Origin: Bacteroidia bacterium
GTDB taxonomy: Bacteria > Bacteroidota > Bacteroidia > M30B66
Direction: 5' to 3'
Length of the DNA stretch: 64,000 nucleotides
Assembly (NCBI GenBank): GCA_018401705.1
Contig: JAGYKL010000016.1
Coordinates: 1 to 64,000 of the forward strand
In this document: positions 13,219 through 42,694 of the stretch, piece by piece
Layout: every line of letters begins with the position of its first letter
Position numbering within the stretch: position 1 is the first letter of the stretch
The notes under the pieces: generated by a model
The model's input: the letters and a program-made list of their open reading frames with translations, nothing else
The model's database searches: none
Told to the model about the DNA's origin: nothing
Made by a program: the position numbers and the translations under genes

Positions 13219-13407
13219 CGTATTACGTACAACGTACAACGTATTACGAGAATCGTAAATACCTCGTATATCGTAAATCGTATTTCGCACATCGTACATC
13301 GCACATCGTATTTCGCACATCGTATTTCGTACATCGTAAAACGTACAACGTACAACGTATAGTGGAATCGTAAATCGTAAGTCGTAAATCGAAATTCGAT
13401 TTACGAC
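13219..13407. repeat. Degenerate heptamer tandem array (about 26 units of CGTAnnn)
   Basis: About 190 bases read in strict 7-base steps: units such as CGTACAA, CGTAAAT, CGTATTT and CGCACAT, all beginning CG, with two short interruptions. On the other strand the units read like GTTGTAC and GATGTAC. It lies between two divergent genes and ends in a perfect 27-base inverted repeat (13381-13407, arms GTCGTAAATCGAA around one A). Open frames across it are artefacts of the 7-base period, giving 7-residue protein repeats. Similar heptamer tracts occur at 32.1, 36.0, 38.7, 40.9, 41.7 and 56.6 kb. Confidence 0.9.
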
Positions 13408-29288: not shown

Positions 29289-32107
29289 ATGAAATCAAAT
29301 CCTCAAGACGACAAACGACTTTTTCTCTTAGATGCGTATGCATTGATTTATAGAGCGTATTTTGCATTTAGCCGCAACCCTTTGATGAATTCAAAAGGCA
29401 TGAATGTAAGTGCTATAAGTGGCTTTACATCTACCCTTATCGATTTGATTTTACGAGAGAAGCCCACGCATTTAGCTGTTGTTTTTGATTCGGCTGAAGA
29501 AACCACACGAGCAGCTGAGTTTAGCTTTTATAAGGCAAATCGTGAGGCAATGCCCGAGGATATTCAGTTAAGCATTCCGTGGATTAAGCAGATTATTGAA
29601 GCATTTAAAATTCCAATGCTTGAATTAGCCGGTTATGAGGCTGATGATATTATTGGCACAATTGCCAAGGAGAAAGCTGCTGAAGGTCACGTAGTTTACA
29701 TGGTAACTCCCGATAAAGATTATGGTCAATTAGTGCAGGAAAATATTTTTATGTACAAACCTGGCCGCCAAGGAAGTGATGTTGAAATTCTTGGAATTCC
29801 CGAAATCCAAGCTAAATGGGAGGTTGAAAGTCCCTTGCAGGTGATTGATATTTTAGGAATGTGGGGTGATGCTGTTGATAATATCCCTGGAATTCCGGGA
29901 GTAGGAGAGAAGACTGCTAAGAAATTAATTAAAGAATTTGGTTCGATGGAGGAGGTTATTGCCCGATCTTCAGAACTAAAAGGAAAGCTAAGAGAAAACG
30001 TCGAAGCTAATGTTGAGAAAGCATTAATTTCAAAAATGCTTGCTACAATTATTTTGGATGTGCCTATTTCAGTGGAGGATGATGACTTGATAATTTCTGA
30101 GCCGGATAAGGAAAAATTAAAAGCACTATTTGCAGAACTTGAATTTAGAAGCCTTGGCAGGCGGATTTTGGGTGATGAATTTTCAGTAAATCAACACGTA
30201 AATAATACGACAGTCGAGAAAACTGTAAAAGCGACTAATCAAGCTCAATTATCGATGTTTAGTGATGTGGAAGCACCGCCTCCGGCTCATGAACCTGCAG
30301 AAAAAGGTAAAACAATAGAAAATACAGAGCATCATTATGTCGCAGTTGTTGGCAACGAGCAATTAGCCGAATTGGCTTCTAAATTAGCTTCTGTAAAGGA
30401 ATTTTGTTTTGATACAGAAACATCTTCTTTAGATTATTTTAGTTTGGAGCTTGTTGGACTTTCTTTTAGCATCAAAGCCGGTGAAGCTTGGTACGTGCCA
30501 ACTCCGCCTGACAAAGTTGAAACGATGAAGATTTTGTCGCACTTTAAACCTTTATTGGAAAGTACGACAATTGTAAAAATTGGACAGAACATTAAGTTCG
30601 ATATGTTAGTCCTGAAGCAATACGACATTCATGTTCAATTGCCATTGTTTGATACAATGCTGGCGCATTATTTATCTGAGCCAGACCGCAAGCATAACAT
30701 GGATTATCTAGCTGAAACGTATTTAGGTTATTCACCAGTTTCAATTACTGAACTAATTGGGAAGCGCGGGAAGAATCAGGGTTCTATGCGAGATGTCGCA
30801 CTTGAGGAAATTACAGAATATGCAAGTGAAGATGCTGATATTACTTTTCAATTAAAGCAAATTCTTGAGCCAATGCTTAAGGAAAGAGAGGTAGAATCGG
30901 TGTTAGAGAATATTGAAGAGCCTTTGATTCCTGTATTAGCAGCTATGGAATATGAGGGTGTAAAAGTTGATGAGGATTTTCTCAAGAATTATTCAGAAGA
31001 ATTGGGTAAAGATCTACTCGCTTTGCGCGATGAGATTTGGACTATGGCAGGTCAGGAATTTAATATAGATTCACCTAAACAGTTGGGAGAAATTTTATTT
31101 GACAAATTAAAACTTCCCGGTGCGACAAAAACTAAAACCGGTCAATATGCTACCGGTGAGGAGATATTGAGTAAACTGGAGAATGAGCATCCAATTGCTG
31201 CGAAGCTTTTAGATTATCGCGAAATCACTAAACTTATGTTGATTCTCTTCCTCAGTTGATAAACGAAAAAACGGGAAGAATTCACACAACATTTAATCAA
31301 ACTATAGCATCAACAGGGAGGTTGAGGTTCGGTAAGTCCGAATCTTCAGAATATTCCAATCAGAACAGAGGCAGGCATATTCGAAAAGCATTTATTGCAA
31401 GAGATTCAGACCATTTATTATTAATGGCTGCAGATTACAGTCAGATTGAACTTACGACTTGTAGCTGAAATTGCCAAGGAAGAAGCAATACTTGAAGCGT
31501 TTAGAAGCGGAATAGATATTCATCAAGCAAACAGCTGCTAAAGTATACGGTGTAGCACTTGATGACAACACACGCAGATGAGAAGTAAAGCCAAGATGGT
31601 GAATTTGGAATTATTTATTCTATAAGTGCCTTTGGTTTGTCACTTGACGATTAGAATTCCTAGAAAAGAAGCTGCTGAATTAATTGAGAATTATTTTATT
31701 CAATATCCTGGAATTAAATCATTACATGAACGACACCCTTGAATTTGCACGAGCACATGGATATGTAAAGACCATGATGGGGCGCAGGCGCTATTTAAAA
31801 GGATATCAATAGCCGCAATTTTACAGTAGAGGGTTTGCAGAACGGGAAGCAATTAATAAAGTCCTGTGCAAGGCTCTGCTGCAGATTTAATAAAGTACCA
31901 TGATAAATATTCATGCAGAAATGAAGAGGCTTAACTTAAAGAGTAAAATGACGCTTCAAGTGCATGATGAATTGATTTTTGATACTCACAGATGAGCTGG
32001 ATCAACTTAAAGCTCTAGTGATGGATAAAATGAAAAATGCTATTAAAACTACCGTTCCAATTGAAGTTGAAGTTGGGGTAGGTGAGAATTGGTTGGAAGC
32101 GCATTAG
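29289..32107 (+). pseudogene. polA: DNA polymerase I, reading frame broken by indels in the 3' third
   Basis: Intact for 650 codons: 5'-3' exonuclease domain (about 1-290, LFLLDAYALIYRAYFAF, AGYEADDIIGT), 3'-5' exonuclease domain (about 345-530, FDTETSSLDYFS) and the start of the polymerase domain. From about 31240 the frame shifts repeatedly, yet conserved polymerase motifs continue in changing frames: AADYSQIEL, KSKAKMVNFGII, SAFGLS, MTLQVHDELIFD and the end VGVGENWLEAH, stop 32105-32107. Residues are preserved and only single bases are missing or added, so sequence error is more likely than decay. The intact protein would have about 940 residues. Confidence 0.9.
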
Positions 32108-32110
32108 TTT

Positions 32111-32169
32111 TAGTAGGTAGTAAGTAGTAGGTAGTAGGTAGTAAGTATTAAGTAATTGGTAGTTGTGCG
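32111..32169. repeat. Heptamer tract at the left edge of the cassette array
   Basis: About eight 7-base units such as GTAGTAA, GTAGTAG and GTATTAA start four bases after the polA stop and end in TAATTGGTAGTTGTGC. The same ending follows the palindrome at 35.8 kb. The unit resembles the GTTRRRY core of integron recombination sites. Confidence 0.85.
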
Positions 32170-32208
32170 TCATGCTATTAACGACAGTGCAGCTTTGAAA
32201 CTCATGTA

Positions 32209-32243
32209 TTTTGACTAAAACAACCTCGAAAATAGTATCTTTG
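32209..32243 (+). promoter_or_regulatory. Promoter of the XRE-ImmA/DUF4411 cassette
   Basis: TTTTG (32209-32213) and TATCTTTG (32236-32243) with 22 bases between, near the Bacteroidota consensus; nine bases before the ATG. The spacing may be altered by an indel. The cassette appears to carry its own promoter, as toxin-antitoxin cassettes usually do. Confidence 0.45.
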
Positions 32244-32251
32244 AGACCGCA

Positions 32252-33424
32252 ATGGCAGACAAAGCTTTCATAACACCAAAGGTGCTCAAATGGGCAAGAG
32301 AATCAGCAAGAATGACCGAAGAAACTGCTGCTGCCAAAATACCAAAGTTAACAGTTGAAAGTTAAAAGAGTGGAAGATGGCACTAGTCAGCCAACAATCA
32401 GACAAGCACAAATACTTGCAAAAGCTTACAAAAAGACCATTCGCTTTGTTTTTTTTACCTGAAGTCCCAGAGATTTTCAACCACTTCAGGATTTTGAAAA
32501 TCTGGTTCAAAGAGCTAACAACTTCTTCAATTTTTCCATAATTAGAAATCCAACAAAAACAGGCTTGGATAAGTGATGTATATTCAGAGAACAATGAAGA
32601 AAACTTCCATTTGTAGGCAGGTTTTCACTTAATAACATCGAAGGATGTAGCAGACAACATTTTAGCTACTCTAGATATTAATCCGTCTAAGTATAAGACT
32701 GATAATCCAATACGAGAGTGGATTAATGCAGCAGAAAGCAATGGATTTTGTATCTCGAACTAGTTTCATTCCTCTAAATGAAATTAGATTCAAGATTTAA
32801 AGGTTTTGCTATTGCTGACCAATTTGCTCCATTCGTTTTTGTCAACTCTGATGATTGGAATGCACCACAGTTATTTACATTGGTTCATGAACTTGCACAC
32901 ATTTGGATTGCCACCCAACAGGTATATCCAATGAAATTGAGCCAGAGATAGCTAATCGTGATAAATTCAATCCAATAGAACTTTTTGCAACGAAGTTGCA
33001 ATAATGCGCTTATACCAAGTGAAATAATTTTAAGTATTGACAGAGAGTTTTAAGAACTCTCAAGACATTTTAAAACAGCAGAAAACCTTGGTGTTAGTTC
33101 ATTTGCATTTTTAGTTAGAGCATTAAATTTACAACTAGTAACTAATTCAGAATATAAAGTTCTCAAAGACAGAAGCAGAAATTGACTATCAGGCATTTCT
33201 AAAAGAAAAGCAGAAAAAAAGGCTGCCTTAAAATTAAAACAGAAAGAAAAGCCAGGAGGACCGAATCCATACCTATTAAGTTAAACAAAAACAGCAGACT
33301 ATTTACACAAGTTGTTCTTGATGCTTTAAGAAGTGGTTTTGTTCAACCAACTTGCCTAAGCAAGTTTCCTATTAGGACACCTTCTAATAACTTTCATAAA
33401 CTTGAAGCACAAATATACAAATGA
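32252..33424 (+). pseudogene. XRE-HTH plus ImmA/IrrE metallopeptidase (frame broken)
   Basis: Reading across frameshifts gives about 390 residues. The N-terminal helix-turn-helix is ITPKVLKWARESARMTEETA. A linker of the XRE-ImmA type follows (QAQILAKAYKKTIRFVFF, then PEVP-like). The zinc-protease motif LVHELAHIW is at about 32886-32912, and the end is FTQVVLDALRSG...LGTPSNNFHKLEAQIYK. Proteins of this layout are regulators or antitoxins cleaved by or acting with a partner toxin. Its TGA overlaps the DUF4411 ATG by four bases. The frames are broken at least six times, probably by sequence error. Confidence 0.8.
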
Positions 33425-33930
33425 GTTCTTCGGCACATATTTATTGTTTAGATGCCAACGTCCTCATTCAAACTTGGCAAAAATGGCCACACCTGAAATT
33501 TGTCCCGACTATTGGAATTCTTGAATTAGGCAAACAAGGACGAATTTTCATAGCAGAAAGAGTGAAAAATGAAATTGTTGTTACAGACGACAAGGGAAAA
33601 AAGAAGACGACCTTTCAGAAATGGTTAAAACGCAGTTCCATACCTGTTCATAAACCGACAGAAAATGTAATAAAGTGTTGGCAAAATACTATTCAAGCAA
33701 ATCCTTTTACATAAACTACTTGTGGACAATGTTAAAGGCAGATCACTTGACCCTTGGGTTTATTTCACGCATTAGACAAAGCAACAGTCGTGACCAAGAA
33801 AGTCCGATCATTTCACTGAATGCAGAAAAGCCTGTGACTATACCAAACGTTTGTGACAATGGGAGTTCGTTGGATTGACGACTTCTCATTCGTTAAAGAG
33901 CTAGGTCTTAAATTTTCATGCAGACTGTAA
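33421..33930 (+). pseudogene. DUF4411 PIN-like toxin candidate (frame broken)
   Basis: Starts HIYCLDANVLIQTW (an acidic PIN-type active-site strand) and continues GRIFIAERVKNEI, WVISHALDKATVVTKE after frame correction, IPNVCDN, GVRWIDDF, ending LGLKFSCRL; about 165 residues. DUF4411 proteins are PIN-fold, probable RNases, and typically follow an XRE-ImmA gene as a toxin-antitoxin pair, as here with an ATGA overlap. Two or more indels after codon 97 break the frame. Confidence 0.8.
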
Positions 33931-33942
33931 AGAAGCACGAAC

Positions 33943-34073
33943 GCACAACAGCGGTTTGCCAAAATTGCCGGGTAAGTTGCAAGTTTGAGCCTGGTTGCAT
34001 AAATTTGACTTTGGTTGCAAGTTGATAGAAGTTTACTAAAGCCGGCACTTCGGCAAGCCGCGAACCGTTATGC
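33943..34073 (+). other. attC-like recombination site 1 (131 bp)
   Basis: An imperfect palindrome starting 13 bases after the DUF4411 stop. The left outer box is GCACAAC (33943-33949), the right GTTATGC (34067-34073). Inner arms pair as AGCGGTTTGCC / GGCAAGCCGCG and TTGCCGG / CCGGCAC. The right arm has extra bases (AACC) next to its core, the asymmetry expected of attC sites. The central region contains GCAAGTTTGAG, shared with site 3. Confidence 0.65.
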
Positions 34074-34827: not shown

Positions 34828-34961
34828 TGCTAACAGGCGCTTAGCAGCATTCGGGCATTGGAAGTCCTAATAAAGATCAAGTTGTTTGGAACTTTGCGTT
34901 TCCAAATGTACATTTGAGACAGCTTATTCCCGAACGCCGCTAAGTGCCGGACCGATTAGTG
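34828..34961 (+). other. attC-like recombination site 2 (134 bp)
   Basis: Left core TGCTAAC (34828-34834), right core GATTAGTG (probably GTTAGTG with an error, 34954-34961). Arms pair well: GCGCTTAGCAGCATTCGGG against CCCGAACGCCGCTAAGTGC, with a few mismatches and extra bases (GACC) on the right. Starts eight bases after the HEPN stop. Shares TTTGGAACTTTGCGTTTC with site 3. Confidence 0.65.
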
Positions 34962-35833: not shown

Positions 35834-35965
35834 CACTAACAGCGCACAGCCGCCAATTGGGGTTTTATATTAGTTTGGAGCTTTACGTTTCTTTCTTAAT
35901 TTAGTGCAAGTTTGAGCTTCAGCCTTCGAAATCCCAACCGTCGGCTGTTCGCGAGAACGTAGTAA
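35834..35965 (+). other. attC-like recombination site 3 (132 bp)
   Basis: Left core CACTAAC (35834-35840), then AGCGCACAGCCG...CAATTGGGGTTT pairing with AAATCCCAACCGTCGGCTGT and TTCGCGAGAAC before the right core GTAGTAA (probably GTTAGTAA with a lost T). The right core is also the first unit of a heptamer tract. Central segment TTTGGAGCTTTACGTTTC matches site 2 and GCAAGTTTGAG matches site 1. Confidence 0.65.
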
Positions 35966-36010
35966 GTACTAAGTAGTAAGTAATTGGTAGTAAGTAATTG
36001 GTAGTTGTGC
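35959..36010. repeat. Heptamer tract fused to attC-like site 3
   Basis: Seven to eight units (GTAGTAA, GTACTAA, GTAATTG) in uninterrupted 7-base register, beginning in the right core box of site 3 and ending TAATTGGTAGTTGTGC, the same end as the tract after polA. Confidence 0.85.
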
Positions 36011-38177: not shown

Positions 38178-38709
38178 CAGTTTTTAAACTATTCTAAGCT
38201 TATTGACTAAATTGAATAGTAATTGGAAGTATGTGAAAAATAAATTGAGCATACGTAAACACCACAAAATGAGAATTGCTTTTGTTGATTTTGTATTGAT
38301 TCAAAATCAGAAATTGAAGAATTGTGATTGGTATGCGAAATTTTCGGGTGTTATTGTTTTTATTTTTCCTATCACTAATTTCAAAACTGGAATTTTTATA
38401 CTCAAGACTAAGTGCTAGATTAACAGGCAAGGGGATGGAGAATGAAGTGGGATCTTTCTATTTCTAGAATACCTCATTATTTTCAATGATTCTATCTATG
38501 GCTCGAGCCTGCTCAGCCCAACTATGTGGAAGTTTCAAAGGGAGTTTAGTATGCCCAGTATAACTGCTTACTTTTGTGATGGATTTAAATAATCAGCTGT
38601 CTGGTTTATTGAACACCCCCTTTAGAATAAAAATCTCTTCTTGATTACTCCTGCTGTTAGCTATCAGGTGCCAAATCCCACAATGCATAATCAACGATTC
38701 ACCGCCAAC
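38178..38709. other. Unresolved cassette interval with a heptamer remnant
   Basis: This 530-base stretch has no clear gene. On the minus strand a fragment reads KLPLKLPHSWAEQARAIDRI followed by ENNEVF, which looks protein-coding but unassigned. The 76- and 71-codon ORFs here overlap each other on opposite strands and are not convincing. At 38692-38716 a heptamer pattern (ACCGCCA, ACTGCCA) leads into palindrome 4. Confidence 0.4.
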
Positions 38710-38846
38710 TGCCAACGTTTGCATCTGCCCGAAGGACGGCACTTTTACCACAAAACCCAATTTGAAATCGCCTGAGGCGGATGATTAACTCCATAAAACT
38801 GTCTTTGGGCCACGAAACCCCGGATTTTGGGTAGCTGCTGTTACGG
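38710..38846 (-). other. attC-like recombination site 4 (137 bp, inverted)
   Basis: On the minus strand: left core CCGTAAC (38840-38846), then AGCAGCTACCC; right arm GGGCAGATGCAAAC and right core GTTGGCA (38710-38716). Arms pair GCAGCTACCC / GGGCAGATGC with few mismatches. Sites 4 and 5 share the minus-strand order GTAACAG...GTTGG, opposite to sites 1-3. Pairing is weaker than in the others. Confidence 0.45.
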
Positions 38847-38894
38847 TACGTTTTTTTGTCTGGTTGCCAGTCTAAGTTTGTTTTTAAGTCAAGT

Positions 38895-40872: not shown

Positions 40873-40907
40873 CCATAACTAACAACTACCCACCATCAAC
40901 CACCAAC
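40873..40907. repeat. Heptamer tract fused to attC-like site 5
   Basis: Exactly five 7-base units on the minus strand, starting with the core GTTGGTG of site 5 and continuing GTTGATG, GTGGGTA, GTTGTTA and GTTATGG. A near copy of this 35-base block lies at 41741-41767. Confidence 0.85.
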
Positions 40908-41033
40908 GGTTCGCTTGTCAGCCGTCAGTTTGGGTTTTGGAAAACTATAGCCTCACACGAAACGAATTTACCAAAAGTACCACAAGGTTTCACTTAACTG
41001 TAAATCCCAAATTGAGGCTGCACTCTGTTACAT
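40901..41033 (-). other. attC-like recombination site 5 (133 bp, inverted)
   Basis: On the minus strand: left core ATGTAAC (41027-41033), arm CAGCCTCAATTTGGGATTT pairing with AAACCCAAACTGACGGCTG, then AAGCGAACC and the right core GTTGGTG (40901-40907). The GCGAACCGTT end is the same as in site 1. It lies 49 bases after the HigA stop. Confidence 0.65.
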
Positions 41034-41081
41034 GACAGTGAAATAATTCAACAATTAACATACCAGTTTCACCGTGAACAT

Positions 41082-41720: not shown

Positions 41721-41740
41721 GATCATTCAGTGTCACGTAA

Positions 41741-41767
41741 CTAACAAAACCCACCATCAACTACCAA
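41741..41767. repeat. Heptamer tract at the right edge of the cassette array
   Basis: On the minus strand it reads GTTGGTA, GTTGATG, GTGGGTT and a shortened TTGTTA, near-identical in order to the tract of site 5 but without an adjacent palindrome. It marks the array border 40 bases before the universal stress gene. Confidence 0.75.
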
Positions 41768-41806
41768 CTTCCCCCTTTCTCCTTCATCCTTTTTCCTTTC
41801 CCCTAA

Positions 41807-42694
41807 TCAATGCGATCCTAAAATTCCAGTTGCACCGGCAGAGAAAAGCATTGGGTCGAATGAATTTAGTACCATTACTGGAATCCCTTTTCCATTGGCA
41901 ACAATCTTTTGCTCATAAGGACCTCCATTTAGCCATGCGGTGAAAGTCGTTTCGAGAGAAACCATAACCATGATCATGTCGACCTTATTATCTAAGGCAT
42001 ATTGAATTGTAGCATCTGTAAAATCAGCTGAAGCATCTACATCATGAACTTTATAATCAACACCTTCTGATTTTAATTCTCTTTCCAGGTATCTAAGGTT
42101 ATTGACTACATTCTTATCGAATTCATTTTTTTCATGCTTAACAAGCAAATGACAAACAGAATCAAATCTTTTTGCCAATTCAAGTGCCCAAGCTATTTTC
42201 TGTTTCGACTCAAACGCATAGTCAACAGGAAGAAGGATATTCTTATATTCATCGCAAACAGCAGCAGTTTTATCCATTACTACAAATGGTCTATCGGCAC
42301 TGGTAATTACTTTTAATGCCTTGCTGCCCATAAGTTTTTGCATACCTGTTACTCCATGAGTTCCCATTACTATGAGAGAAGCGTTTAATGTTTTTGCAAC
42401 ATCAGCAATTGTCTCATAAATGCTTCCTTCACGAATAGAATACTCGATTTCTACCTTCTCAACAGCAATGTATTTTTCGGCAAGCCTTTTTAATTCATTA
42501 GTGCGCTCATCAATGCTATTGAATTTACTTGTTGATTTACCACCTTTCTCATAAATATTAACGAGATGCACTTTCTTCTGAAACAGTGATGCAAGTTTTG
42601 CAGCATGTGAAAGGGTAACATCTGAAAGGTCGGTTAAATCTAAAGCAACAAGAATAACGTCAGATTCAATAGGTTTAATGATATTTCTTTTCAT
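41807..42694 (-). CDS. Universal stress protein, two-domain
   Basis: A 295-residue protein with two UspA domains (about 10-145 and 150-285). The first contains DVILVALDLTDLSDVTLSHA and the nucleotide-binding-like GTHGVTGMQKLMGSKALKVI; the second is more diverged (NILLPVDYAFESKQK, DMIMVMVSLETTF). Tandem USPs bind ATP or act in stress survival; the mechanism is unspecified. This is the first intact gene after the indel-rich block; it is followed on the plus side by an HD-domain gene 19 bases upstream on the same strand. Confidence 0.92.
   Translation of the reverse strand: MKRNIIKPIESDVILVALDLTDLSDVTLSHAAKLASLFQKKVHLVNIYEKGGKSTSKFNSIDERTNELKRLAEKYIAVEKVEIEYSIREGSIYETIADVAKTLNASLIVMGTHGVTGMQKLMGSKALKVITSADRPFVVMDKTAAVCDEYKNILLPVDYAFESKQKIAWALELAKRFDSVCHLLVKHEKNEFDKNVVNNLRYLERELKSEGVDYKVHDVDASADFTDATIQYALDNKVDMIMVMVSLETTFTAWLNGGPYEQKIVANGKGIPVMVLNSFDPMLFSAGATGILGSH

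Follow-up and report, generated by a model that had tools for sequence, protein, structure and literature searches.

For the Bacteroidetes, one complete integron has been reported, that of Salinibacter ruber (PMC9024848), and a survey of integrons required the IntI additional domain (PMC2426708). Off-target insertion by a distant integrase has been described as one origin of CALINs (PMC8618304), and attG sites are named in PMC12901181, which cites Loot et al. (2024) for them. Intergenic heptamer repeats, often located beside start or stop codons, have been described for Beggiatoaceae, Cyanobacteria and Bacteroidetes (PMC4679880). In the open-licence literature, we found neither a description of cassette insertion into heptamer tracts as targets nor anything on Bacteroidota integrons with an alternative integrase.

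The window analysed here is the whole 64,000-nucleotide stretch of contig JAGYKL010000016.1 from a Bacteroidia bacterium. In it, the genes polA and usp are convergent and the 9.6 kb between them contain a cassette array, and no integrase was matched in the window by profile search. An earlier note had observed that attC-like core boxes in this interval run into tandem 7-base repeats. We consider it probable that two heptamer tracts of an ordinary intergenic kind were split by the insertion of mobile cassettes, the tracts serving as secondary (attG-like) sites.

Layout of the polA–usp interval and its attC sites

The features of the interval are given by window position, a caret marking the crossover.

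29289-32107, + strand: polA (DNA polymerase I), left flank; Pfam polA domains; ends in GCGCATTAG
32111-32162, + strand: T_L, left border heptamer tract of the TAGTAGG/GTAGTAA family, just past the polA stop codon and outside the cassette array; lag-7 score 28; ends in GTAATTGGTAG^
32163-34067, + strand: cassette 1; starts with TTGTGCGTCATGC, the reverse complement of its own R'' (GCACAAC, 33943)
33943-34073, + strand: attC site 1; 53.8 bits with covariance model R1; R and L stems fold on the opposite strand; no tract 3' of the site
34828-34960, + strand: attC-like site 2; long hairpin; R' is GATTAG, with a probable inserted A; no tract; missed by R1
35834-35965, + strand: attC site 3; 27.9 bits with R1; crossover G at 35959, tract next
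35959-36004, + strand: T_M, internal heptamer tract (GTAGTAA/GTAATTG); ends in GTAATTGGTAG^TTGTGC
38695-38716, - strand: T_4, short heptamer tract 3' of site 4; GTTGGCA GTTGGCG GTGAATC G
38710-38847, - strand: attC-like site 4, weak; R'' ACCGTAAC matches its own cassette start GTTATGGT; not recovered by R1
40879-40907, - strand: T_5, heptamer tract; GTTGGTG GTTGATG GTGGGTA GTTGTTA G^TTATGGTAC
40901-41034, - strand: attC-like site 5; R'' CATGTAAC matches its own start GTTACGTG at about 41741 in 7/8 positions; not recovered by R1
41741-41768, - strand: T_U, right border tract, just past the usp stop codon and outside the cassette array; GTTGGTA GTTGATG GTGGGTTTTGTTAG^TTACGTG
41807-42694, - strand: universal stress protein gene usp, right flank, intact; Pfam Usp 1.1e-25

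The polA gene is intact up to 31256 and frameshifted beyond, amounting to 668 aa here versus a single ORF of about 940 aa in relatives. Between 31250 and 41800 the window is rich in frameshifts, which break the final 850 bp of polA and the majority of the cassette genes; the flanking genes are intact. This stretch of 31.25-41.8 kb is probably low-accuracy sequence and, because of the frameshifts, tract unit counts within it are unreliable.

The covariance model R1, which was built from 13 sequences of the same genome, gave 25 matches at E <= 5 in that genome, mostly on contigs C29, C46, C25 and C53, and the genome holds further cassette arrays on small contigs. Matches to R1 were obtained in 95 of 295 genomes of the class, and covarying attC arrays occur in about one in three of the Bacteroidia genomes sampled. 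When 150 matches were aligned, paired cells amounted to 86.5% as compared to 64.6% after shuffling and covariation was 0.525 as compared to 0.143; the alignment had been fitted to R1, which biases the count toward the structure, but slid controls still did not exceed 0.09. Most of the attC sites found class-wide (L239-L298) are 129-135 nt long, near 131 nt, and sites of a shorter class, near 57 nt, come mainly from the genome studied here. In the window, R1 recovered only sites 1 and 3 and not sites 2, 4 and 5. Sites 1 and 3 are imperfect palindromes with R and L stems and the conserved AAC/GTT, and with these two sites and no integrase in the cluster the array qualifies as a CALIN (at least two attC sites, no integrase in the cluster). 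Sites 2, 4 and 5 are read as attC-like from sequence comparison and boundary logic, sites 4 and 5 being weak candidates; the R'' of site 4 is complementary in 9/10 positions to the cassette start at about 40879 and a clear attC fold is absent.

Heptamer tracts within and outside the array

The abutment of tracts on attC cores, as reported in the earlier note, is real in outline at sites 3, 4 and 5, but it is not general and some of the details differ. GTAGTAA at 35959 is the first heptamer unit of the tract 35959-36004. For 35959-36005, TRF returned periods of 7 (score 48) and 14 (score 73), and lag-7 segments as strong as T_M were absent from Markov-shuffled sequence. The repeated heptamers at site 3 had been counted as seven or eight, which is slightly high, as 6-7 were found. 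On the minus strand, the shorter tract reported for site 4 was confirmed, and at site 5 a tract does run from the core, but it consists of four inexact units and not of five exact units from GTTGGTG. Tract units start exactly at the crossover G at site 3 (35959) and at the minus-strand sites 4 and 5. The proposed identity of the unit with the GTTRRRY core is weak: the length of 7 agrees, but the first unit GTAGTAA does not follow GTTRRRY and sibling attC sites read GTTA.

The border tracts T_L and T_U, which had been overlooked, belong to the same two families as the internal tracts, and each internal tract belongs to the family of the border tract on its own side. On the left, T_L and T_M show 84% identity over 57 nt, and joining them leaves the register off by 3 nt. 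On the right, T_5 almost duplicates T_U as far as the crossover, and the two together hold the 7-nt register. An assembly artefact, in which short repeats and noisy sequence linked cassette arrays to polA and usp, would be in line with the longest open frames of 59-136 aa across 32-41 kb, with the break in polA from 31.26 kb and with the other cassette arrays on small contigs. However, border and internal tract families agree on each side separately and the junctions are exact and biologically sensible, which makes such an artefact quite improbable.

Heptamer tracts without attC are common, occurring in the window at 13219-13399, on other contigs of the same genome and at polA loci of other Bacteroidota, as intergenic period-7 repeats independent of attC. 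The tract at 13219-13399 (TCGTANN) lies between divergent genes, with no attC close by.

Cassette boundaries and proposed insertion into tracts

Cassette starts were located by the complementarity between R'' and the cassette's own start, without reference to tracts. Among 88 consecutive cassettes, the variable R'' bases matched perfectly the own start in 64 cases and the next start in 11, and an average of 3.43 out of 4 bases matched the own start, whereas 1.93 ± 0.10 was obtained for a shuffled-start null. Complementarity to the own start is the mark of circles that close at G^TT, and by their G^TT crossover and this complementarity the units are cassettes. Applied to the window, the rule placed cassette 1 at 32163 (perfect match), cassette a at 41740 (7/8) and cassette b at 40878 (9/10). 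The starts of cassettes 1, a and b directly follow the last G of a tract, reading GGTAG^TTGTGC, TTGTTAG^TTACGTG and TTGTTAG^TTATGG, respectively. A cassette in the relative G006 has a start resembling that of cassette 1 (GGTCATGCTAAAAGACGACAGTGC). When site 3 was compared with its sibling attC on contig C25, 118 of 128 columns were identical up to the crossover G, and identity fell to background beyond it. No attC belonging to the piece after T_M was found, though this piece starts like a cassette.

Tracts of the same families outside the array, cassette starts at tract ends and the divergence of site 3 at the crossover G are together better explained by insertion than by a grown core. The main idea of the earlier note, namely that slippage or recurrent recombination multiplied the core box of attC, does agree with tracts that start exactly at the core and with a period equal to the core length. 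Against it, the first unit GTAGTAA differs from the sibling core (GTTA...), sibling identity ends at the crossover G, the same tracts exist outside the array, where the border tracts have no preceding attC, and about 160 other attC cores are unexpanded; we regard core multiplication as very improbable.

For the preferred insertion into tracts, polA and usp would each first have had an ordinary post-stop intergenic heptamer tract, of a kind common in Bacteroidota, and these tracts would be older than the insertions. Excision from arrays of the same organism would have yielded circular cassettes, whose attC sites would then have exchanged strands with G^T steps in the tracts, at GGTAG^T on the left and at TTGTTAG^TT on the right. 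Each insertion would place a tract remnant ending in G before a cassette starting with TT, and the rest of the split tract would become the apparent R' core and its 'expansion' 3' of the attC. Nested insertions would produce several tract pieces per half of the locus, and the enzyme would most likely be the genome's own integrase encoded on contig C45. The anatomy of the tract junctions fits a target that is neither attI nor attC and has a G^T crossover, which makes them candidate attG secondary sites. As heptamer tracts account for 0.37% of the sampled non-ORF bases in the same genome, we estimate the chance of two borders falling in tracts at about 1e-5.

The location of T_M and T_5 between an attC and the next piece would also be obtained if tracts were 5' leaders carried by cassettes and moving with them. 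However, the complementarity between R'' and own start has cassettes 1, a and b starting past the tract and not before it, T_L and T_U have chromosomal genes as neighbours, and no cassette of other arrays has such a leader, so that carried leaders are unlikely. Equally unlikely is that cassette blocks were imported by homologous recombination between like tracts, or by segmental duplication, with no integrase acting at the tract. The likeness of T_L and T_M, which flank the block of cassettes 1-3, and of the near copies T_U and T_5 speaks for such a route, but the pieces join to the base at the integrase crossover G^T, which this route does not require.

Some findings count against tract insertion as well. 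The T_L/T_M pair is out of register, sites 4 and 5 make weak attC sites, the cassette-like piece 3' of T_M lacks a recognised attC, attC abuts a tract in no other genome examined, and the frameshift-rich stretch may hold local sequence errors. On a profile of the attI-like sites described below, tract junctions scored weakly, from -4.3 to 1.4 and with -14.8 for T_4, versus 7 to 21 for the training sites. These low scores indicate that tract junctions share little with attI beyond AG^T, and the window tracts would therefore be secondary sites at best; attI as a sequence model of the tract junctions was rejected for this weak similarity. An empty polA-usp site was not found in close relatives, and the six family members read differ in sequence 3' of polA.

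The coupling between tracts and attC is not general. Most heptamer tracts lie far from any attC, and the refuting condition which the earlier note had set thus holds for core expansion. No tract abuts any of about 160 other attC sites from the same genome, its family and the class Bacteroidia, and at the sites of the genome and family ordinary cassette starts come next. Similarly, none of the lag-7 tracts in 60 other class loci abuts an attC, some of them lying 1.3-2.6 kb upstream of attC and off cassette starts. When 395 class genomes were scanned for attC ends that continue into GTWGNNN heptamers, 2 matches were obtained, versus 1 for the control; the match that was read is not an attC and the other could not be relocated in its locus. 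Tracts are therefore not general landing sites. The suggestion that they serve as landing sites is supported at this locus, where independently found cassette starts lie at tract ends, but not class-wide. Among the leftmost cassettes of about 60 loci, starts adjoin the end of an attC, an attI-like motif or unclassified sequence, and only the start in the window abuts a tract, with a lag-7 score of 27 compared to at most 7 for all other starts. A tract upstream of attC on contig C24 of G006 was discarded as a parallel case because it lies about 680 nt from the cassette start. In L301:7600-9300 (G000:C12, about 71600-73300), a solitary attC cassette follows a gene stop, and the likely start of this cassette lies about 15 nt past the end of a weak heptamer tract.

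Integrases, attI-like sites and comparison with known systems

A canonical IntI, for which we required the TIGR02249 cut-off of 265 and the IntI-specific additional domain, was sought in the class. No protein of the genome studied here exceeded the cut-off, and only one of 296 class genomes held one that did; in that genome (G146), no obvious repeated attC was seen near the IntI. The Bacteroidia integrases scanned reached 181-216 bits on TIGR02249 and left profile positions of about 180-238 unmatched; they lack the IntI-specific segment and are not canonical IntI. The genome's own tyrosine recombinase is encoded at G000:C45:160253-161038 (L164:9888-11042). Relatives of it were found in 8-10 of 60 attC regions versus 0 of 80 polA control regions. 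The family is present in 142 of 295 class genomes, 71 of which also have attC (Fisher p 1.8e-10, odds ratio 5.4). In the 24 same-contig pairs of integrase and attC that were compared, attC lay downstream on the same strand in 19, at a distance of 0.8-2.3 kb in 13 of these. Integrases of the C45 family upstream of attC arrays and reading toward them were seen in L276, L278, L281, L282, L285, L286, L292 and L323-L342. In a tree of 35 proteins, array integrases and IntI were separated from Xer with 100/99 support, the tree having only three Xer rows, one IntI and long branches.

When the complementarity rule was applied to integrase loci, about half of those tested had their first cassette beginning 78-125 nt past the integrase stop codon, at a shared motif near TATAAANNAG^TT, and in the genome studied here an attI-like site lies 140 nt after the C45 integrase. 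By our own count over 198 genomes, the class-wide motif GCGNATATANNNNAGTTR was present 55 times, versus 18 times for the reversed control. A conserved attI-like site of about GCGNATATANNNNAG^TT, often 3' of an inverted repeat, was observed in L324, L325, L326, L328, L338, L341, L276 and others. On contigs C24 and C39 of G006 (L308 and L290), cassettes start at an attI-like GCGGATATATACTAG^TT and no integrase was seen beside them.

There is about an even chance that Bacteroidia hold a widespread integron lineage which the open-licence papers searched do not describe. It would have an IntI-sister integrase without the IntI-specific segment, transcribed toward the array, an attI (about GCGNATATANNNNAG^TT) some 80-140 nt past the stop codon and attC sites mostly of about 131 nt, and its cassettes would also be able to land in GT-rich gene-end heptamer tracts, as at the polA-usp locus. 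If true, a cassette system would be present in about one third of the sampled Bacteroidia genomes, in a phylum with one complete integron according to PMC9024848, and surveys demanding the IntI additional domain would overlook its integrase. It would also raise the question of whether recognition of folded attC needs the IntI extra domain. This wider system is the more interesting outcome compared with the tract coupling, and the tract junctions would provide a specific example of cassette insertion into simple repeats at places other than attI.

Like integrons, the arrays described here have an R''-L''-L'-R' hairpin with strong covariation, a G^TT crossover and an R'' complementary to the own start; unlike integrons, most of the attC sites found are about 131 nt long and only one canonical IntI above the cut-off was obtained from 296 class genomes. 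The heptamer tracts resemble the repeats of PMC4679880 in that period 7 is dominant and in their intergenic location near start or stop codons, whereas the unit sequences differ and the word integron is absent from that paper. Like CALINs and off-target insertions, the polA-usp locus has attC cassettes, no adjoining integrase and a chromosomal place other than attI. In contrast to the CALIN and attG cases, the probable target here is a heptamer tract, which provides G^T steps at intervals of a few bases and would have been used on both sides of the locus.
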